The notes beneath the pieces are model-generated. The model worked only from the letters and a program-made list of their open reading frames with translations. It was not told the DNA's origin and searched no databases. A stretch of DNA of 56,812 nt from Prevotella sp. (GTDB lineage Bacteria > Bacteroidota > Bacteroidia > Bacteroidales > Bacteroidaceae). Below are positions 23,913 through 29,104 of this stretch, one piece after another. Location: positions 1 to 56,812 of the forward strand of contig JAGCPK010000143.1 in NCBI GenBank assembly GCA_017965725.1. The letters are read 5' to 3'. A program made the position numbers and the translations under genes. Position 1 is the first letter of the stretch, and the number at the start of each line of letters is the position of its first letter.

Positions 23913-23951
23913 GTTTTTTCTTGTTTGTTTCAAGAAAAAACCTTATCTTTG
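23913..23951 (+). promoter_or_regulatory. Promoter and palindromic operator candidate upstream of the first methyltransferase
   Basis: CTTG at 23920-23923 and TATCTTTG at 23944-23951, 20 bases apart, form a promoter. A perfect 11-base inverted repeat, GTTTTTTCTTG (23913-23923) and CAAGAAAAAAC (23931-23941) with a 7-base centre, covers the -33 element and most of the spacer. A dimeric regulator such as the HTH protein encoded at 26957 could bind here; that is inference. Confidence 0.55.
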
Positions 23952-23984
23952 CAAAATGAAAAGCGTAACATAAAATTTACAACT

Positions 23985-24095
23985 ATGAAAGAAAATGGTT
24001 ATAACAAATCTTTGGTTGTTGATACATGGAATGGGATAGATATTTATTCCAAGAATTGCCAGAATGGTTTTGGGATGTTAACTAAGGGAAAGTAG
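23985..24095 (+). CDS. Small open frame (36 residues) before the first methyltransferase gene
   Basis: An ATG-initiated frame of 36 codons lying between the promoter and the TTG start of the methyltransferase, ending five bases before it and in a different frame. The peptide starts MKENGYNKSLVVDTWNGIDI and has no recognisable domain. It may be a small protein, a leader whose translation governs the downstream TTG start, or a chance frame. The ATG follows the -7 element by about 33 bases, which makes it the first start codon of the transcript. Confidence 0.3.
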   Translation: MKENGYNKSLVVDTWNGIDIYSKNCQNGFGMLTKGK

Positions 24096-24100
24096 GGGAT

Positions 24101-25510
24101 TTGCGGGTAGTATCTTTTTTTGCTGGTTGTGGCGGTCTTGATCTTGGCTTTGAGCAGGCAGGATTCCAAGTAGTTTGGGCTAACGAGTTCGACTCTGCTG
24201 TCCGTAATACTTATCTAAGGAATCACCCTCATACAGAGTTCGTATTGGATGATATCACAAGAATAGCGCCCGACACCATTCCCGACAGTGATGGTTTTAT
24301 CGGAGGTCCCCCGTGTCAATCATGGAGTGTTGCAGGCAAGCAACAAGGACTTGATGACAAGCGTGGTAAATTATTCCTTACATATATTCATTTGATAAAA
24401 GTGAAGAAACCAAAGTTCTTTCTTATTGAGAATGTTAAGGGAATGCTTGACGATAAATTTAAGGATATCTTTCAGGAATTTCTTACTCTTTTGAAATCGG
24501 CTGGATATGATGTTAGTTGGCAACTATTGGATGCAGTCAATTATGGAGTACCACAAAACAGAGAACGTGTATTTTTGATAGGATTCAGAAAAGACCTCAA
24601 TATTAGATATAGTTTCCCTATGCCAACAAGTAAGGAACCCATCTCTTTATATCGGGCTATTGGCGACATTAAGGATGAACCAGTTAAATACATGGGAAAT
24701 GACAGTGTTGCTATTAATCCATACCGTCTAAATCATGATGTACTAAATTCGGATTATGGTCCTTTCTATTATAGGGGAAACCGTCGTAGAGGGTGGCTGC
24801 AGCCATCTTTCACCATCCATGCTACAGCAGATAATATTCCTCTTCATCCATCGTCACCTAAGATGATGTTCTTCGGACATGAGAAGTGGGATTTTCAAAG
24901 GGAGAAATTATCTTCTTATCGCAGATTAAGTGTAAGAGAATGTGCTAGAATTCAGACCTTTCCTGATAGTTTCTTTTTTGATTGTAATGACATAAAAGCA
25001 ACTTACAAGATGATTGGGAATGCCGTTCCTCCTCGTCTGGGCAGAATCTTGGCACAGTCTATTATATCTGCATTTGCTGGTGAGTATCAAGTGCAAACAG
25101 AAACGTATCACCTTGAAACGGATAAAGATGCCTGTACCCTTGTCGGTTATTATAAAAATGACAGCCATCATGACCTTATTCTTAGAAATCGGTTGTATTA
25201 CGTACGTTCCGACGGGCGAAAAGGCTCTATTTTCAGAGAAGACTGTGATATGATGCCCAAATACCTTCTGATGTTCCACAATGATAATGCAGAACTGTTA
25301 GAACTTGAATCTGATGAGCCTGCCCTTGCTAATGCGAGTTTCCTTAAAAGTTTGGGGTTTGATTGTCATGGCGATAATTATTTGTGCTTTAAGTTGAAAA
25401 GCAATAAGAATCTCACAATTAAAGGTTTGGGCGGGAGTGTTACACATCCCATCTATGATAAGAACAACTATATTCCATATTTTACCACTTTACGAGAAAT
25501 AATCAAGTAG
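24101..25510 (+). CDS. C5-cytosine DNA methyltransferase, M.HaeIII-like subgroup
   Basis: A 469-residue enzyme that transfers a methyl group from AdoMet to cytosine C5 in a specific DNA site. Motif I is SFFAGCGGLDLGFEQAGF (residues 5-22), motif IV is GGPPCQSW with catalytic C72, motif VI is ENV at 110-112, motif VIII is QNRERVFLIGFR, and motifs IX-X are RRLSVRECARIQTFPDSF and YKMIGNAVPPRLG. The pattern resembles GGCC methyltransferases such as M.HaeIII, from memory rather than alignment. About 125 extra residues follow motif X (ending FTTLREIIK), unusual for this subgroup. The start is TTG; it places motif I at the N-terminus. AT-richer than the flanking core genes. Confidence 0.92.
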   Translation: MRVVSFFAGCGGLDLGFEQAGFQVVWANEFDSAVRNTYLRNHPHTEFVLDDITRIAPDTIPDSDGFIGGPPCQSWSVAGKQQGLDDKRGKLFLTYIHLIKVKKPKFFLIENVKGMLDDKFKDIFQEFLTLLKSAGYDVSWQLLDAVNYGVPQNRERVFLIGFRKDLNIRYSFPMPTSKEPISLYRAIGDIKDEPVKYMGNDSVAINPYRLNHDVLNSDYGPFYYRGNRRRGWLQPSFTIHATADNIPLHPSSPKMMFFGHEKWDFQREKLSSYRRLSVRECARIQTFPDSFFFDCNDIKATYKMIGNAVPPRLGRILAQSIISAFAGEYQVQTETYHLETDKDACTLVGYYKNDSHHDLILRNRLYYVRSDGRKGSIFREDCDMMPKYLLMFHNDNAELLELESDEPALANASFLKSLGFDCHGDNYLCFKLKSNKNLTIKGLGGSVTHPIYDKNNYIPYFTTLREIIK

Positions 25511-25565
25511 AGGAAACATATCTATATTGACAGGATAAAAGCTAAAATAAAAGAAAATAGTTAAT

Positions 25566-25634
25566 TATACAACTTGATATAAATAATTAATCTGTACCTT
25601 TGTACCTAAATAGTTATACCCAATAGTTGTATAG
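25566..25634 (+). promoter_or_regulatory. Promoter of the second methyltransferase, flanked by inverted 9-mers
   Basis: TACCTTTG at 25595-25602 is a good -7 element; a -33 element is less clear (TTG at 25574-25576, 18 bases upstream). TATACAACT at 25566-25574 and its exact complement AGTTGTATA at 25626-25634 bracket the promoter, with a related AGTTATA word between them. These could be operator half-sites. The GTG start follows at 25638. Confidence 0.45.
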
Positions 25635-25637
25635 TAG

Positions 25638-26906
25638 GTGAACCAGTTTACGTTTATCGATCTTTTTTGTGGGATAGGTGGATTTCATCAGGCAATGTCG
25701 GAACTTGGTGGAATTTGTTTATTTGCCTGTGACATTGATGCAGATTGTAGAAAAACTTATGAAAAGAATTATGGAATCAGACCAGATGGGGATATAACAA
25801 AGATTGATGCAAAGGATATCCCGCTTCATGATGTCTTGTGTGCTGGTTTTCCTTGTCAGGCCTTTTCAAAGGCGGGAAGCAGATTAGGATTTAAGGATAA
25901 AACTAAAGGAACTCTCTTTTTCGACATAATGCGTATTTTAGATTATCACCATCCTAAATATGCGTTATTAGAGAATGTCAGGAATCTGGCTAGTCACGAT
26001 CATGGAAATACTTGGAAAGTTATTCATGATGCATTAGATAATGCTGGATATAACGTTATAGATGAGCCTGTCATTTTCAGCCCTCATTATATTGGAGTAC
26101 CTCAGCATAGAGAACGTGTTTTTATAATGTGTGTTAGAAAAGATGTAGGATCTCTTCCACCTTTCTATTTTAATATAAACAAAATCCCCACATGCAGTAT
26201 AGATGATATTCTGCTAAACGATGACGAAATTGATGATTTAGGGCAGTATAAACTTAGGGAGGATCAGATTGAATGGATAGATTTATGGAATGAGTTTATT
26301 CAAAATATCAAGTGTAACAAACTGCCAGGCTTCCCTGTGTGGGCTGACTCTTTATGTTCTCTAGAAGATAATCATCTAGTAAAGGATTGGGATAATCTGC
26401 CTAAATGGGAAAAGAACTTTATTATTAAAAATAACGAACTGTGGAAAAATAATAAGGACTTTATTGCTTATTGGTTGCCAAAAGCCCAAAAGAACAAAAA
26501 CTTTTTTGGAGCAAAAGCAAAACTTGAATGGCAAGCAGGAGAAACTGATAAGCCTAACTTATGGGAACATATCATGCAAATAAGACCCTCTGGGCTCCGC
26601 GTAAAGCCAGGAACCTATTTCCCTGCACTAGTTGCTATTACCCAGACCTCAATTGTAGGGAAAAAGAAAAGATTTCTAACCCCCAGAGAATGCGCTAGAT
26701 TACAAAGTTTTCCTGACACTTTCCAATATGATGATAAAAATGCCCAAGCATATAAGCAATTTGGAAATAGCATTAATGTGGAACTGGTAAAATTCTTCGC
26801 GAGATATATGTTTGGTGACACAGAACACCAATATCAGTATTCTAAAGAAGTTCAGTTTCCTCCTGATAAAAGACAACTAGAATTAAGTTTCTTAGAAGTA
26901 ATATAG
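25638..26906 (+). CDS. C5-cytosine DNA methyltransferase, M.HhaI-like subgroup
   Basis: A 422-residue C5 methyltransferase of a different subgroup from the preceding one. Motif I is FIDLFCGIGGFHQAM (residues 6-20), motif IV is CAGFPCQAFSKAG with catalytic C73, motif VI is ENV at 112-114, motif VIII is GVPQHRERVFIMC, and the end is RFLTPRECARLQSFPDTF and AYKQFGNSINVELV. A large region of about 150 residues between motifs VIII and IX (including LPGFPVWADSLC) must be the target-recognition domain. The start is GTG at 25638; no ATG sits near enough. A strong terminator follows directly. Confidence 0.92.
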   Translation: MNQFTFIDLFCGIGGFHQAMSELGGICLFACDIDADCRKTYEKNYGIRPDGDITKIDAKDIPLHDVLCAGFPCQAFSKAGSRLGFKDKTKGTLFFDIMRILDYHHPKYALLENVRNLASHDHGNTWKVIHDALDNAGYNVIDEPVIFSPHYIGVPQHRERVFIMCVRKDVGSLPPFYFNINKIPTCSIDDILLNDDEIDDLGQYKLREDQIEWIDLWNEFIQNIKCNKLPGFPVWADSLCSLEDNHLVKDWDNLPKWEKNFIIKNNELWKNNKDFIAYWLPKAQKNKNFFGAKAKLEWQAGETDKPNLWEHIMQIRPSGLRVKPGTYFPALVAITQTSIVGKKKRFLTPRECARLQSFPDTFQYDDKNAQAYKQFGNSINVELVKFFARYMFGDTEHQYQYSKEVQFPPDKRQLELSFLEVI

Positions 26907-26908
26907 AC

Positions 26909-26936
26909 AAAGCACTGCGAAAGCAGTGCTTTTTTA
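26909..26936 (+). terminator. Rho-independent terminator after the second methyltransferase gene
   Basis: AGCACTGC, a GAAA tetraloop and GCAGTGCT form a perfect 8-bp stem, followed directly by a run of T. It ends only about 20 bases before the ATG of the HTH regulator, and I see no good promoter in between, so regulator and nuclease expression may depend on read-through. Confidence 0.85.
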
Positions 26937-26956
26937 ATGATACTTATTGTAGGTTT

Positions 26957-27169
26957 ATGGAAAGAATAGAATTAGTCGAATTAGGCAAAATCATTAAGTC
27001 TAAACGTGAATCAAAGGGACTCACGCAACTTGAACTTGCGGAGAAATCCGATGTGGATAGGAATTATATCGGAATGTTGGAGAGAGGTGAACGAAATCCC
27101 TCTTATCTTTCATTATTGAAAATTGCCAAAGGATTAAACATCAAAGTGTATAACTTGATAAAACCATAA
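26957..27169 (+). CDS. XRE-family HTH regulator (putative controller protein of the restriction-modification system)
   Basis: A 70-residue protein that is almost entirely one lambda-repressor-type HTH domain: LGKIIKSKRESKGLTQLELA, DVDRNYIGMLERGERNPSY, LLKIAKGLNIKVYNLI. Size, sequence pattern and position just before a nuclease gene fit a C protein, which delays nuclease expression until the host DNA is methylated. The candidate nuclease starts two bases after its stop codon. The palindrome at 23913-23941 is a possible binding site. I see no clear promoter of its own; it lies just downstream of a terminator. Confidence 0.88.
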   Translation: MERIELVELGKIIKSKRESKGLTQLELAEKSDVDRNYIGMLERGERNPSYLSLLKIAKGLNIKVYNLIKP

Positions 27170-27171
27170 TT

Positions 27172-28080
27172 ATGCTGTACCCTAACACACTAAATGAAAT
27201 TGAAACCAACACCAATCCAGGTGTTGAGTATGAAATTGCACTATTTGCAAAACTAATTACTAGCGACAGTGATGATTACCAAAAAGTAATTGATTCTATA
27301 CATAAACGTAATGACTGCTCGAAAGTTATAGATATAATGAATAAAACAAATTTAAGAATTCTTTATGGAGAATTAGTTAATTTTGGTTTTACATTAGAAG
27401 ACGCATCTTTTGAAACGCAAAACGACAATGTTGGGCCTGCTGATATTGTTTTGACAGTTATTGATAAATATAACATAGAGTTTAAATTGGGATTGTCTAT
27501 CAAGTATGCAAATAAAAATACACTTAATCCTACTGCTCGAAGATTTTTAACCGATTCTCAAATATCAGTATTAAATGAGAAGTTTGAGAATGTCTATATC
27601 CCTAAATACTTAGAAGAAATGAAAAAAAAGTTTGGTAATGTCAATAACTGGAAAAGAAAACGTTCAGTAGTTGCTGATGCGTTTTATGATCTTATGAGAA
27701 ATGCAGTTATTGAAAATTGGCCAAACATATGTGACAAAACCACACTTTTAGCGACAATGTTTCATGCAAATTCCCCTATTCCTTTTTGGGTGATTAACTA
27801 CAATCAAAACGGATACACAGTTGAGACTATACCGGAAACTATTGATGAAAGTAGAGCAAATGACATCAAGGTAGAAAAATATCGTGACTGTTTTGTCGCT
27901 TTCAAATTAGATGGTCGAATAATAGGAAAAGTTCAGGTCAAATGCAATAATGGCTTTATAGAGGATCAATTTAACCATGCAGGTAAAGCCAAGAAAAAGA
28001 CCCCTGATTTCATAATTGATGGCGCTCCTAAAATAAAGGGAAAGCCTTTCGGTTCGTGGGATTTTACTTTAGGTATTTAA
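27172..28080 (+). CDS. Probable type II restriction endonuclease with PD-(D/E)xK motif
   Basis: A 302-residue soluble protein with no signal peptide. GPADIVL (D91) followed by IEFK (E103, K105) and GLSIKYANKN gives a PD-(D/E)xK arrangement; the GLSIKY segment recalls the EIGLSIKHN of HaeIII-family nucleases. The rest is lysine-rich, with TPDFIIDGAPKIKGKPFG near the C-terminus. Location directly after a controller-type regulator and two methyltransferase genes supports a nuclease role. The recognition site cannot be read. The family assignment is from memory and needs a profile search; a different endonuclease fold is possible. Confidence 0.65.
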   Translation: MLYPNTLNEIETNTNPGVEYEIALFAKLITSDSDDYQKVIDSIHKRNDCSKVIDIMNKTNLRILYGELVNFGFTLEDASFETQNDNVGPADIVLTVIDKYNIEFKLGLSIKYANKNTLNPTARRFLTDSQISVLNEKFENVYIPKYLEEMKKKFGNVNNWKRKRSVVADAFYDLMRNAVIENWPNICDKTTLLATMFHANSPIPFWVINYNQNGYTVETIPETIDESRANDIKVEKYRDCFVAFKLDGRIIGKVQVKCNNGFIEDQFNHAGKAKKKTPDFIIDGAPKIKGKPFGSWDFTLGI

Positions 28081-28098
28081 TTATATAACGATATTATT

Positions 28099-29061
28099 AT
28101 GATTAGCGAGATTTTTAATAAAACAAAAGACATTATCATTAATGCGGATATTGATGGTTTCTTATCTGGAATGATATTGCAGAAATACTATGGGTGTAAT
28201 GTGGTTGGTTTCAGCAATAGTTGGGATTGTGTTTGGATTACGCCAGAATATGAATCCTCAAATAGTAATGCCCTATATAAGCCTGTATACATTGACTTAT
28301 ATGTTGTTAACCCTGATGTGATTTGTATTGAACAGCATATAATAGGGTATGACGATGCGCATAATAAGAGGTTATCGTCTTTGGGAACAAAAATAAATCC
28401 AAATCTTATGTGTAATGGACGAACATTTACAGGTGATTATTTTCACAAATATCCCTTTGGAACTGTTCACTTCCTTATTGCTTTACTGGAAAGAGAAGGT
28501 GTTCATGTTCAATTGCCTTCTCTTGATTCCATTACGGGACAAATAGCCAAGAACTATAATCTTACAGTCGGGGATATTTTGCTTCGTGCAGATGATGCAC
28601 TATTCTCATCTTTAGGAAAATATAAGTCTAATACAGAAAAATGGTGGCCTTGGCTTTTTGATTTTTCTGGTAATGCAGATTCTATTAATGCGATGATGAG
28701 ATATGTCTGTGAAGCAAACCCTAATAACAAATTTAAAGTTAAAGATAGGACCGGAGAATATTTCACAAGAGAATTTCAATGTAGTGGTATGGATGGCGAA
28801 TACAAAAATATTACCGATAATAATGGTAACCTCCTTAGTTGTGTTCTTAAATATCGTGATGAAATATGTAATATGATGAATATGTCATTAGATATTCCAC
28901 TTATATACAATATTCATCAAGGTAATGCATCAACGAAAAAATATTTGGATACCAGTGTAGAACTAGATTATCAACATAATCCTGATTTATATTCCTATGC
29001 TTTCATTTATGGACCTAGGTCTCCCAAGGATAATTTCAGTTTTACAATAGATATGCAATAA
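28099..29061 (+). CDS. Unrecognised protein with DHH-phosphoesterase-like motifs, in the restriction-modification cassette
   Basis: A 320-residue soluble protein I cannot assign to a named family. Residues 12-24 read IIINADIDGFLSG, close to the D-x-D-G motif I of DHH phosphoesterases (D17, D19). PVYIDLYV (D66) resembles motif II, and CIEQHIIGYDDAH at 76-88 lies where DHH would be, with EQH (78-80) in its place. TGDYFHKYPFGTVHFLIALLE is a further conserved-looking segment. DHH enzymes such as RecJ and nanoRNases cleave nucleic acids or cyclic nucleotides. The gene follows the putative nuclease by 18 bases on the same strand and is followed by a hairpin, so it looks like the last gene of the cassette. 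Confidence 0.55.
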   Translation: MISEIFNKTKDIIINADIDGFLSGMILQKYYGCNVVGFSNSWDCVWITPEYESSNSNALYKPVYIDLYVVNPDVICIEQHIIGYDDAHNKRLSSLGTKINPNLMCNGRTFTGDYFHKYPFGTVHFLIALLEREGVHVQLPSLDSITGQIAKNYNLTVGDILLRADDALFSSLGKYKSNTEKWWPWLFDFSGNADSINAMMRYVCEANPNNKFKVKDRTGEYFTREFQCSGMDGEYKNITDNNGNLLSCVLKYRDEICNMMNMSLDIPLIYNIHQGNASTKKYLDTSVELDYQHNPDLYSYAFIYGPRSPKDNFSFTIDMQ

Positions 29062-29071
29062 TTATAGGACA

Positions 29072-29104
29072 TACGGGGACTAGTGAAATGAACCAGTCCC
29101 CGTA
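29072..29104 (+). terminator. Hairpin after the defence cassette
   Basis: TACGGGGACT (29072-29081) and AGTCCCCGTA (29095-29104) form a perfect 10-bp stem with a 13-base loop, starting 10 bases after the preceding stop codon. No T run follows, so it may act as an RNA-end-stabilising hairpin or a factor-assisted terminator. Confidence 0.55.

Follow-up and report, generated by a model that had tools for sequence, protein, structure and literature searches.

A DHH-like protein as a possible restriction effector in a controller-regulated methyltransferase island of Prevotella

The island and its recurring cassette

In a 56,812-nucleotide stretch of Prevotella sp. DNA (contig JAGCPK010000143.1; the whole stretch is hereafter the window), positions 23913 to 29104 hold an island of five open reading frames (ORFs) on the forward strand, which we call M1, M2, C, R, and D. 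D resembles the DHH phosphoesterases, and its relatives usually lie close to a DNA methyltransferase gene. We propose that D is a DHH-type restriction effector and that the island is a controller-regulated M2-C-R-D cassette plus an unrelated methyltransferase, M1, a combined reading for and against which the evidence appears to us evenly balanced. The features, in window coordinates, are as follows.

23913..23941, no strand assigned: hairpin preceding M1, U-rich on both strands, at the left edge of the island (z = -4.04; 1 of 200 shuffles equally stable)
24101..25510, + strand: M1, TTG start, 469 amino acids, HaeIII-like C5 DNA methyltransferase, outside the recurring cassette
25118..25507, + strand: C-terminal domain of M1, about residues 340-469
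25638..26906, + strand: M2, GTG start, 422 amino acids, HhaI-like C5 DNA methyltransferase, the methyltransferase of the recurring cassette
26909..26932, + strand: terminator-like hairpin with a U run between M2 and C (z = -6.36; 0 of 200 shuffles equally stable)
26937..26951, + strand: C-box ATGATACTTATTGTA, exact copy, common to loci L008-L011
26957..27169, + strand: C, 70 amino acids, Xre/HTH_3 controller-type regulator
27172..28080, + strand: R, 302 amino acids, putative restriction endonuclease with a HaeIII-like active-site stretch
28099..29061, + strand: D, 320 amino acids, DHH-superfamily-like, putative restriction effector or co-effector
28147..28155, + strand: motif I of D, DxD, residues 17-19
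28294..28338, + strand: motif II (D66) to motif III (E-Q-H80) of D, with D66 and H80 in 73/73 aligned rows
28594..28596, + strand: D166, invariant (73/73 rows), candidate motif IV ligand
29072..29104, + strand: terminal hairpin 3' of D (z = -5.95; 0 of 200 shuffles equally stable)

The preliminary description of five one-strand genes, AT-richer than their flanks and closed by a hairpin, holds: G+C content in 500-base windows is 0.29 to 0.41 within the island and about 0.44 to 0.54 in the flanks, and the hairpin stands out from its shuffles.

M2 matches PF00145 in Pfam (E = 1.6e-78), has M.HhaI as its nearest solved structure, and can thus supply the DNA methyltransferase of a Type II system. 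C matches HTH_3 (E = 2.7e-16) and the PADLOC Control_protein family (5e-13). When the five window proteins were searched by tblastn against 75 loci that carry D (described below), the order M2-C-R-D reappeared in L008 (Prevotella sp. P5-50), L009, L010, and L011, with identities to the window of 76-80% for M2, 73-81% for C, and 49-51% for R. In a separate comparison M2 was 73-79% identical in these four loci and in L015, and 59-60% in L017 and L022. The 15-base C-box ATGATACTTATTGTA occurs at eight sites in L008-L011 with 0-1 mismatch each; it precedes C in the window and in all four loci, M2 in L009-L011, and R in L008. No site with two or fewer mismatches was found in nine other loci scanned. 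With the HTH_3 match of C, this shared box constitutes a candidate operator. Visual inspection showed similar hairpins between M2 and C in L008-L011.

Because gene order, C-box, and M2/C hairpin are all shared, we conclude from sequence comparison that M2-C-R-D is one regulated unit, in which R and D are the positional candidates for the cognate endonuclease that would cut unmethylated DNA. The earlier proposal of a restriction-modification island with its own controller is borne out by the PF00145 and HTH_3 matches and by this recurrence. The recurrence that it asked about for the whole five-gene order holds for M2-C-R-D, including the fifth gene, and fails for M1, which is missing from L008-L011. 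Loss of the fifth gene from its neighbors had been named as grounds for rejection; D instead stays with M2, C, and R in those four loci.

Looser arrangements were also observed. R, D, and a convergent M2 occur in L017 and L022; M2 and D occur without C or R in L013 and L015, the L015 M2 adjoining an intact D; and in L018 the order is M2, a transposase-like gene, and D. L008-L010 each hold two tandem D paralogues, and the window and L011 one. The tandem paralogues of L008, L009, and L010 fall in separate branches, which suggests that a heteromer is possible.

PvuII, BamHI, and Esp1396I are examples of C-regulated Type II systems. The island shares with such systems a methyltransferase, a small helix-turn-helix (HTH) controller with an upstream box, a gene at the nuclease position right after C, and a terminator between M2 and C. 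It differs from them in that a DHH-like gene stands last in the island and occupies the nuclease position in modules with N6/N4 methyltransferases.

M1 is a separate methyltransferase

M1 matches PF00145 (E = 5.4e-88), and its nearest solved structure is M.HaeIII (E = 2.7e-88); by family and nearest characterized homologue it is a HaeIII-like C5 methyltransferase. M1 and M2 therefore belong to different C5 subgroups, as had been noted. The extra C-terminal region attributed to M1 is also real, as the PF00145 match stops at residue 322 of 469. Of 237 genomes searched within the order, 10 have a match to this domain, the window's own genome counted. In two of them, G165 and G003, the domain forms the end of a second HaeIII-like methyltransferase that adjoins a complete HaeIII methyltransferase and nuclease, and the G165 protein matches M1 over its full length at about 47% identity. 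The tblastn search found no M1 in L008-L011, and a scan of viral contigs with M1 gave no match. Because the M1-type domain recurs elsewhere and M2-C-R-D occurs without M1, we take M1, on this comparative evidence, to be an independent companion methyltransferase of a separately recurring kind and not a member of the cassette.

The preliminary description had entertained that the two methyltransferases may serve an asymmetric site; in a single five-gene system of this type, M1 would protect one strand and M2 the other. Such an arrangement has precedent in Type IIA systems, some of which have two methyltransferases, one per strand, according to the part of a review available to us (PMC4081073). 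We nevertheless consider it very improbable here: M2 does without M1 in L008-L011, and M1 is of its own recurring kind (G165, G003). The two methyltransferases thus belong to unrelated, independently recurring cassettes, which the description itself had given as a reason to abandon the idea.

Matches to the M1 C-terminal domain in L154, L156, and L161 form the C-terminal ends of proteins with DUF2357/PDDEXK_7 (Pfam). Across L153-L161 and window positions 25118-25507, a small domain is thus common to methyltransferases and to DUF2357/PDDEXK_7 nuclease proteins.

D and its methyltransferase partners

The window's D reached no family in Pfam (E ≤ 1), NCBIfam, or PADLOC, and profile searches of the PDB with D or R returned nothing useful. 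A single-sequence search within the order (393 genomes) recovered two remote matches in addition to D itself, with none in plasmids and none in phages; the canonical D of L030 likewise found none in plasmids or phages. The D family is rare in the window's phylum, because a three-row profile matched only the window's own genome among 395. Scanning genome contigs with A1, an alignment of the window's D and its two remote relatives, yielded 75 loci, which include L035 and L081, the source contigs of query rows, all collected by a scan anchored on D.

A methyltransferase gene lay close to D, no more than four genes ahead of it or two genes past it, in 64 of the 75 loci (N6/N4 type in 54, C5 type in 10), as counted by models trained on those same neighbors; among distant control genes of at least 200 amino acids, 3 of 299 were methyltransferases. 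Pfam was run on 48 of the 55 convergent downstream neighbors and on 36 of the 43 upstream ones. PF01555 was present in 44 of the former; upstream it was found in 8 of 36 and HTH_3 in 21 of 36. We prefer this Pfam count of HTH genes to that of our own model, whose training included a short upstream gene of L016 that does not look like an HTH protein. The convergent methyltransferase runs into the stop codon of D, with a gap of -32 to +5 nucleotides in 44 of 45 pairs, and in 24 loci, by the model trained on them, an HTH gene ends at or near the start of D, mostly within a few bases. Among 471 unlabelled neighbors no other family occurred in more than three loci, and those that did recur look like housekeeping genes. 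Near plasmid relatives of the N-type methyltransferase (H32, H33) have no annotated nuclease alongside.

Identities of D and of its methyltransferase correlate (r = 0.72 over 52 pairs, a value that 0 of 1,000 permutations reached, with genome relatedness uncontrolled); the median identity in these pairs was 48% for D and 66% for the methyltransferase. A tree of D built by a quick method separates a C5 clade of 16 rows, which includes the window, an N-type clade of 52 rows, and five distant rows. Represented among these rows are Bacteroidota, Ignavibacteriota, Chlorobiota, Chloroflexota, Planctomycetota, Elusimicrobiota, several candidate phyla, and two bins of archaea. Because metagenome bins make up most of the records, single taxonomic placements may be wrong. 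Because the N6/N4 modules hold no other candidate nuclease and no other shared gene, we infer that D is their effector.

Two further arrangements were observed around these modules. In 17 of the 48 D-convergent genes scanned, an N6/N4 methyltransferase carries a LexA DNA-binding domain and Peptidase_S24 fused at its N terminus (Pfam). Such fusions were found in L025, L031, L033, L034, L049-L051, L055, and L057, as well as in L062, L066, L067, L069, L070, L075, and L080. The 16 listed here have a G-x-S-M serine motif, preceded in most by an Ala-Gly pair about 33 residues earlier. Nothing comparable to this fusion appeared among the papers matched in literature listings. In L006/L035, D lies between an N6/N4 methyltransferase and a 1049-amino-acid protein that we read as a putative Type IIG/ISP-like restriction enzyme.

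Relationship of D to the DHH superfamily

The D alignment comprised 73 rows after exclusion of ORFs shorter than 270 amino acids; a version of 71 rows (A4) leaves out L045 and L069. D carries the acidic and His residues of DHH motifs I to III. The motif I positions D17 and D19 are each D in 69 of 73 rows, and D17, D19, D66, H80, and D166 occur all together in the same number (69/73). D66, H80, K117-Y118-P119, D166, N178, and W182 are kept in all 73 rows. Position 79 holds H in 41 rows and Q in 32, the window having Q.

Profile comparison by hhalign with 35 NrnA-type proteins gave scores of 38.0 for the trimmed D profile and 40.7 for the full one, beside 45.1 for RecJ against the same 35 proteins. 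The real score of 38.0 exceeds the maximum of 24.8 from 150 column shuffles; with a 19-protein NrnA set, the trimmed profile scored 29.4 and the maximum of 100 shuffles was 23.1. D thus resembles NrnA-type DHH-DHHA1 proteins (PF01368) in motif I ([PT]DxDG) and the helix that follows, in an [DEG][HQ]H motif III, and in hhalign scores of 38 to 41. It is unlike them in falling below Pfam detection (a single one of the 71 members matched PF01368, at E = 0.022, and the curated score was not reached), in lacking GGGH, in a different C-terminal half, and in having methyltransferase neighbors. From these residues and profiles, D likely belongs to the DHH superfamily, which upholds the DHH likeness first proposed for the fifth gene. 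Like the DHH protein of the PADLOC system DHH_CorA (PDLC01149), D would be a DHH protein among candidate defense genes; unlike it, the window's D matches no PADLOC family, and DHH_CorA is not among the seven families matched by the 71 members.

Among the characterized DHH proteins are phosphodiesterases that act on oligonucleotides and dinucleotides. It is therefore conceivable, if improbable, that D is a phosphodiesterase or regulator serving the methyltransferase, through methylation-damage repair, nucleotide turnover, or expression control, and the alignment of D to NrnA and not to RecJ is what this explanation would lead one to expect. A controller gene ending at or near the start of D (24 loci by model; HTH_3 in 21/36) is, however, the arrangement used for delaying a toxic nuclease, and the use of the same D partner by C5 and N6/N4 methyltransferases speaks against base-specific repair. 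A Vsr-like mismatch-repair role was rejected, since most D partners are N6/N4 methyltransferases and N6/N4 methylation products yield no T:G mismatches.

The R protein

R reached no family in Pfam (E ≤ 1), PADLOC, or NCBIfam. Single-sequence searches found no relative in the order's genomes and none in plasmids, and a family search of 295 genomes returned only the window's own. Relatives of R were found in 6 of the 75 D loci. Eight R sequences (the window, these six loci, and the viral contig L139) share a TQxDxxGPAD + GxSxK stretch. The R profile aligned with four HaeIII-type restriction endonucleases over 31 columns (hhalign score 25.8, E = 0.012); the unrelated NrnA, RecJ, and A4 sets scored 14-20. 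RE_HaeIII (PF09556) was not among the Pfam matches of seven R members, none of which reached any Pfam family. R may be a PD-(D/E)XK enzyme, to judge from this stretch, and not a PF09556 member. The earlier PD-ExK assignment is plausible but weak, since R aligns over a single short HaeIII-like stretch and reaches no Pfam family. The island thus recalls RE_HaeIII and M.HaeIII in the active-site-like stretch of R and in the roughly 47% identity of M1 to the extended methyltransferase of G165; it departs from them in that R misses PF09556 and is accompanied in L008-L011 by M2 rather than by an M.HaeIII homologue. The window's R is itself an outlier of its family, at 50% identity to four homologues, which resemble one another at 60-93%. 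On viral contig L139 (7002-8727), an N6/N4 methyltransferase is followed by an overlapping R relative (24% identity), with no D.

Methyltransferases on viral contigs

A scan with the N-type methyltransferase collected 76 viral contigs (L295-L370), with a median best identity of 63% to the methyltransferases found beside D; 56 of them have at least 1,200 nucleotides on both sides of the gene. D was present in 3 of the 76 (L297, L298, and L332, of which L297 and L298 look like one element) and absent from 73, and neither R nor C was found in any. Pattern scans of viral contigs for D had returned none, a miss of the method, as the three were found through their methyltransferase. M2-type methyltransferases on 80 viral contigs were accompanied by neither D nor R; their identities of 54% or less lend this little weight. 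Phages carrying orphan protective methyltransferases have been described, as stated in the accessible part of PMC12707154. Viral methyltransferases without D fit a protection borrowed against D as the threat, as far as gene content can indicate.

A proposed mechanism and its rivals

In the mechanism that we propose, M2 would methylate host sites and C would bind the conserved box, delaying expression of C, R, and D until methylation is done; R and D would then attack DNA without the methyl mark. D would be a metal-dependent nuclease and a DHH-superfamily phosphoesterase, its own C-terminal region replacing DHHA1. Synteny, the operator, the conserved residues, and the NrnA-like profile match are observed; we infer the nuclease activity and sequence specificity of D, as well as how R and D share the work in the window, where both are probably part of the attack on unmethylated DNA.

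Several observations weigh against this reading. The methyltransferase and HTH models behind the 64/75 count learned from the neighbors that they then counted, and in 11 of the 75 loci no methyltransferase was found nearby (five flagged as contig-edge). D against RecJ gave no hhalign signal (17.6-17.8), and the D/NrnA alignment is confident over no more than about 46 columns surrounding motif I; motif III ([DEG][HQ]H on IDHH) aligned at low confidence and motif II in one alignment only. The DHHA1 GGGH motif is present in 0 of 73 D rows versus 33 of 35 NrnA proteins. NrnA motif IV (DTGSFRF) aligns onto the D stretch YDGKHDFRLKYP, ahead of KYP, and not onto D166; D166 is a candidate motif IV ligand whose role the profile alignment leaves unconfirmed. 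Outside the C5 clade, 55 of 57 rows have D111, which is absent from the 16 C5-clade rows, the window's included; because it is missing there, the active site may be altered in the window's clade. The motif IV and D111 results lower our confidence. The L139 pair also suggests that R can serve without D, and orphan methyltransferases are frequent in phages for reasons unrelated to D as well.

These points bear on a rival in which R is the sole restriction enzyme of the window cassette and D an accessory, either a weak or dead DHH protein aiding DNA recognition or a nuclease degrading ends after R has cut. The HaeIII-like stretch in R, the D-less pair in L139, the Q for H at position 79 and the missing D111 in the window's clade, and the tandem D copies of L008-L010, which a helper subunit might show, would all suit it. 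It accounts poorly for the 54 of 75 loci in which D accompanies an N6/N4 methyltransferase with no R and no other shared gene, for the intact D beside M2 without R in L015, for the retention of D66, H80, and D166 in every row, and for the outlying position of the window's R. We therefore hold this rival to be unlikely, while allowing under our proposal of D as an effector that R may do or share the cutting in the window, as some DHH positions differ in its D clade.

A broader proposal, which we advance more tentatively, is that D represents a sixth catalytic family among restriction enzymes, as a DHH endonuclease that depends on metal and recognizes its site through its own C-terminal region. 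D would work alone with a controller and an N6/N4 methyltransferase in many bacterial phyla and archaea, and combined with a C5 methyltransferase and a second nuclease in Bacteroidota. Viruses would carry the matching methyltransferase to escape, and in candidate phyla the fusion of the methyltransferase with a LexA-type self-cleaving repressor would tie the system to DNA damage. The available part of a 2014 review places Type II enzymes in five families, PD-EXK, HNH, GIY-YIG, PLD, and PabI, and calls the remainder unassigned "mysteries," perhaps with new folds and mechanisms (PMC4081073). Neither DHH nor RecJ is mentioned in the accessible portions of the restriction reviews PMC4081073 and PMC12707154, and no paper on a DHH restriction enzyme was recognizable by title or abstract among the matches listed in a full-text search that lay outside REBASE and preprints. 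If the proposal is true, a DHH-type effector would be one answer to the unassigned Type II enzymes, and a set of viral methyltransferases would be explained as counter-defense. The D modules are readily testable, with two or three small genes, a highly conserved methyltransferase, and predicted ligands that can be mutated.

Other features of the island

No clean empty site was found in five fetched flanks (L162-L166): argH and its adjacent gene are syntenic in them, and the GH36 gene on the island's other side was not found there. Dedicated promoters, claimed earlier for the island, are not substantiated by a sigma-70 scan, which gave 33 sites versus 23.4 expected (standard deviation 5.5). TAnnTTTG boxes, which we presume to be of the Bacteroidota type, are readable before M1 and M2. 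Upstream of M1, window positions 23985-24095 hold a 36-codon open frame whose stop lies 5 bases ahead of the M1 TTG start, a possible leader peptide.

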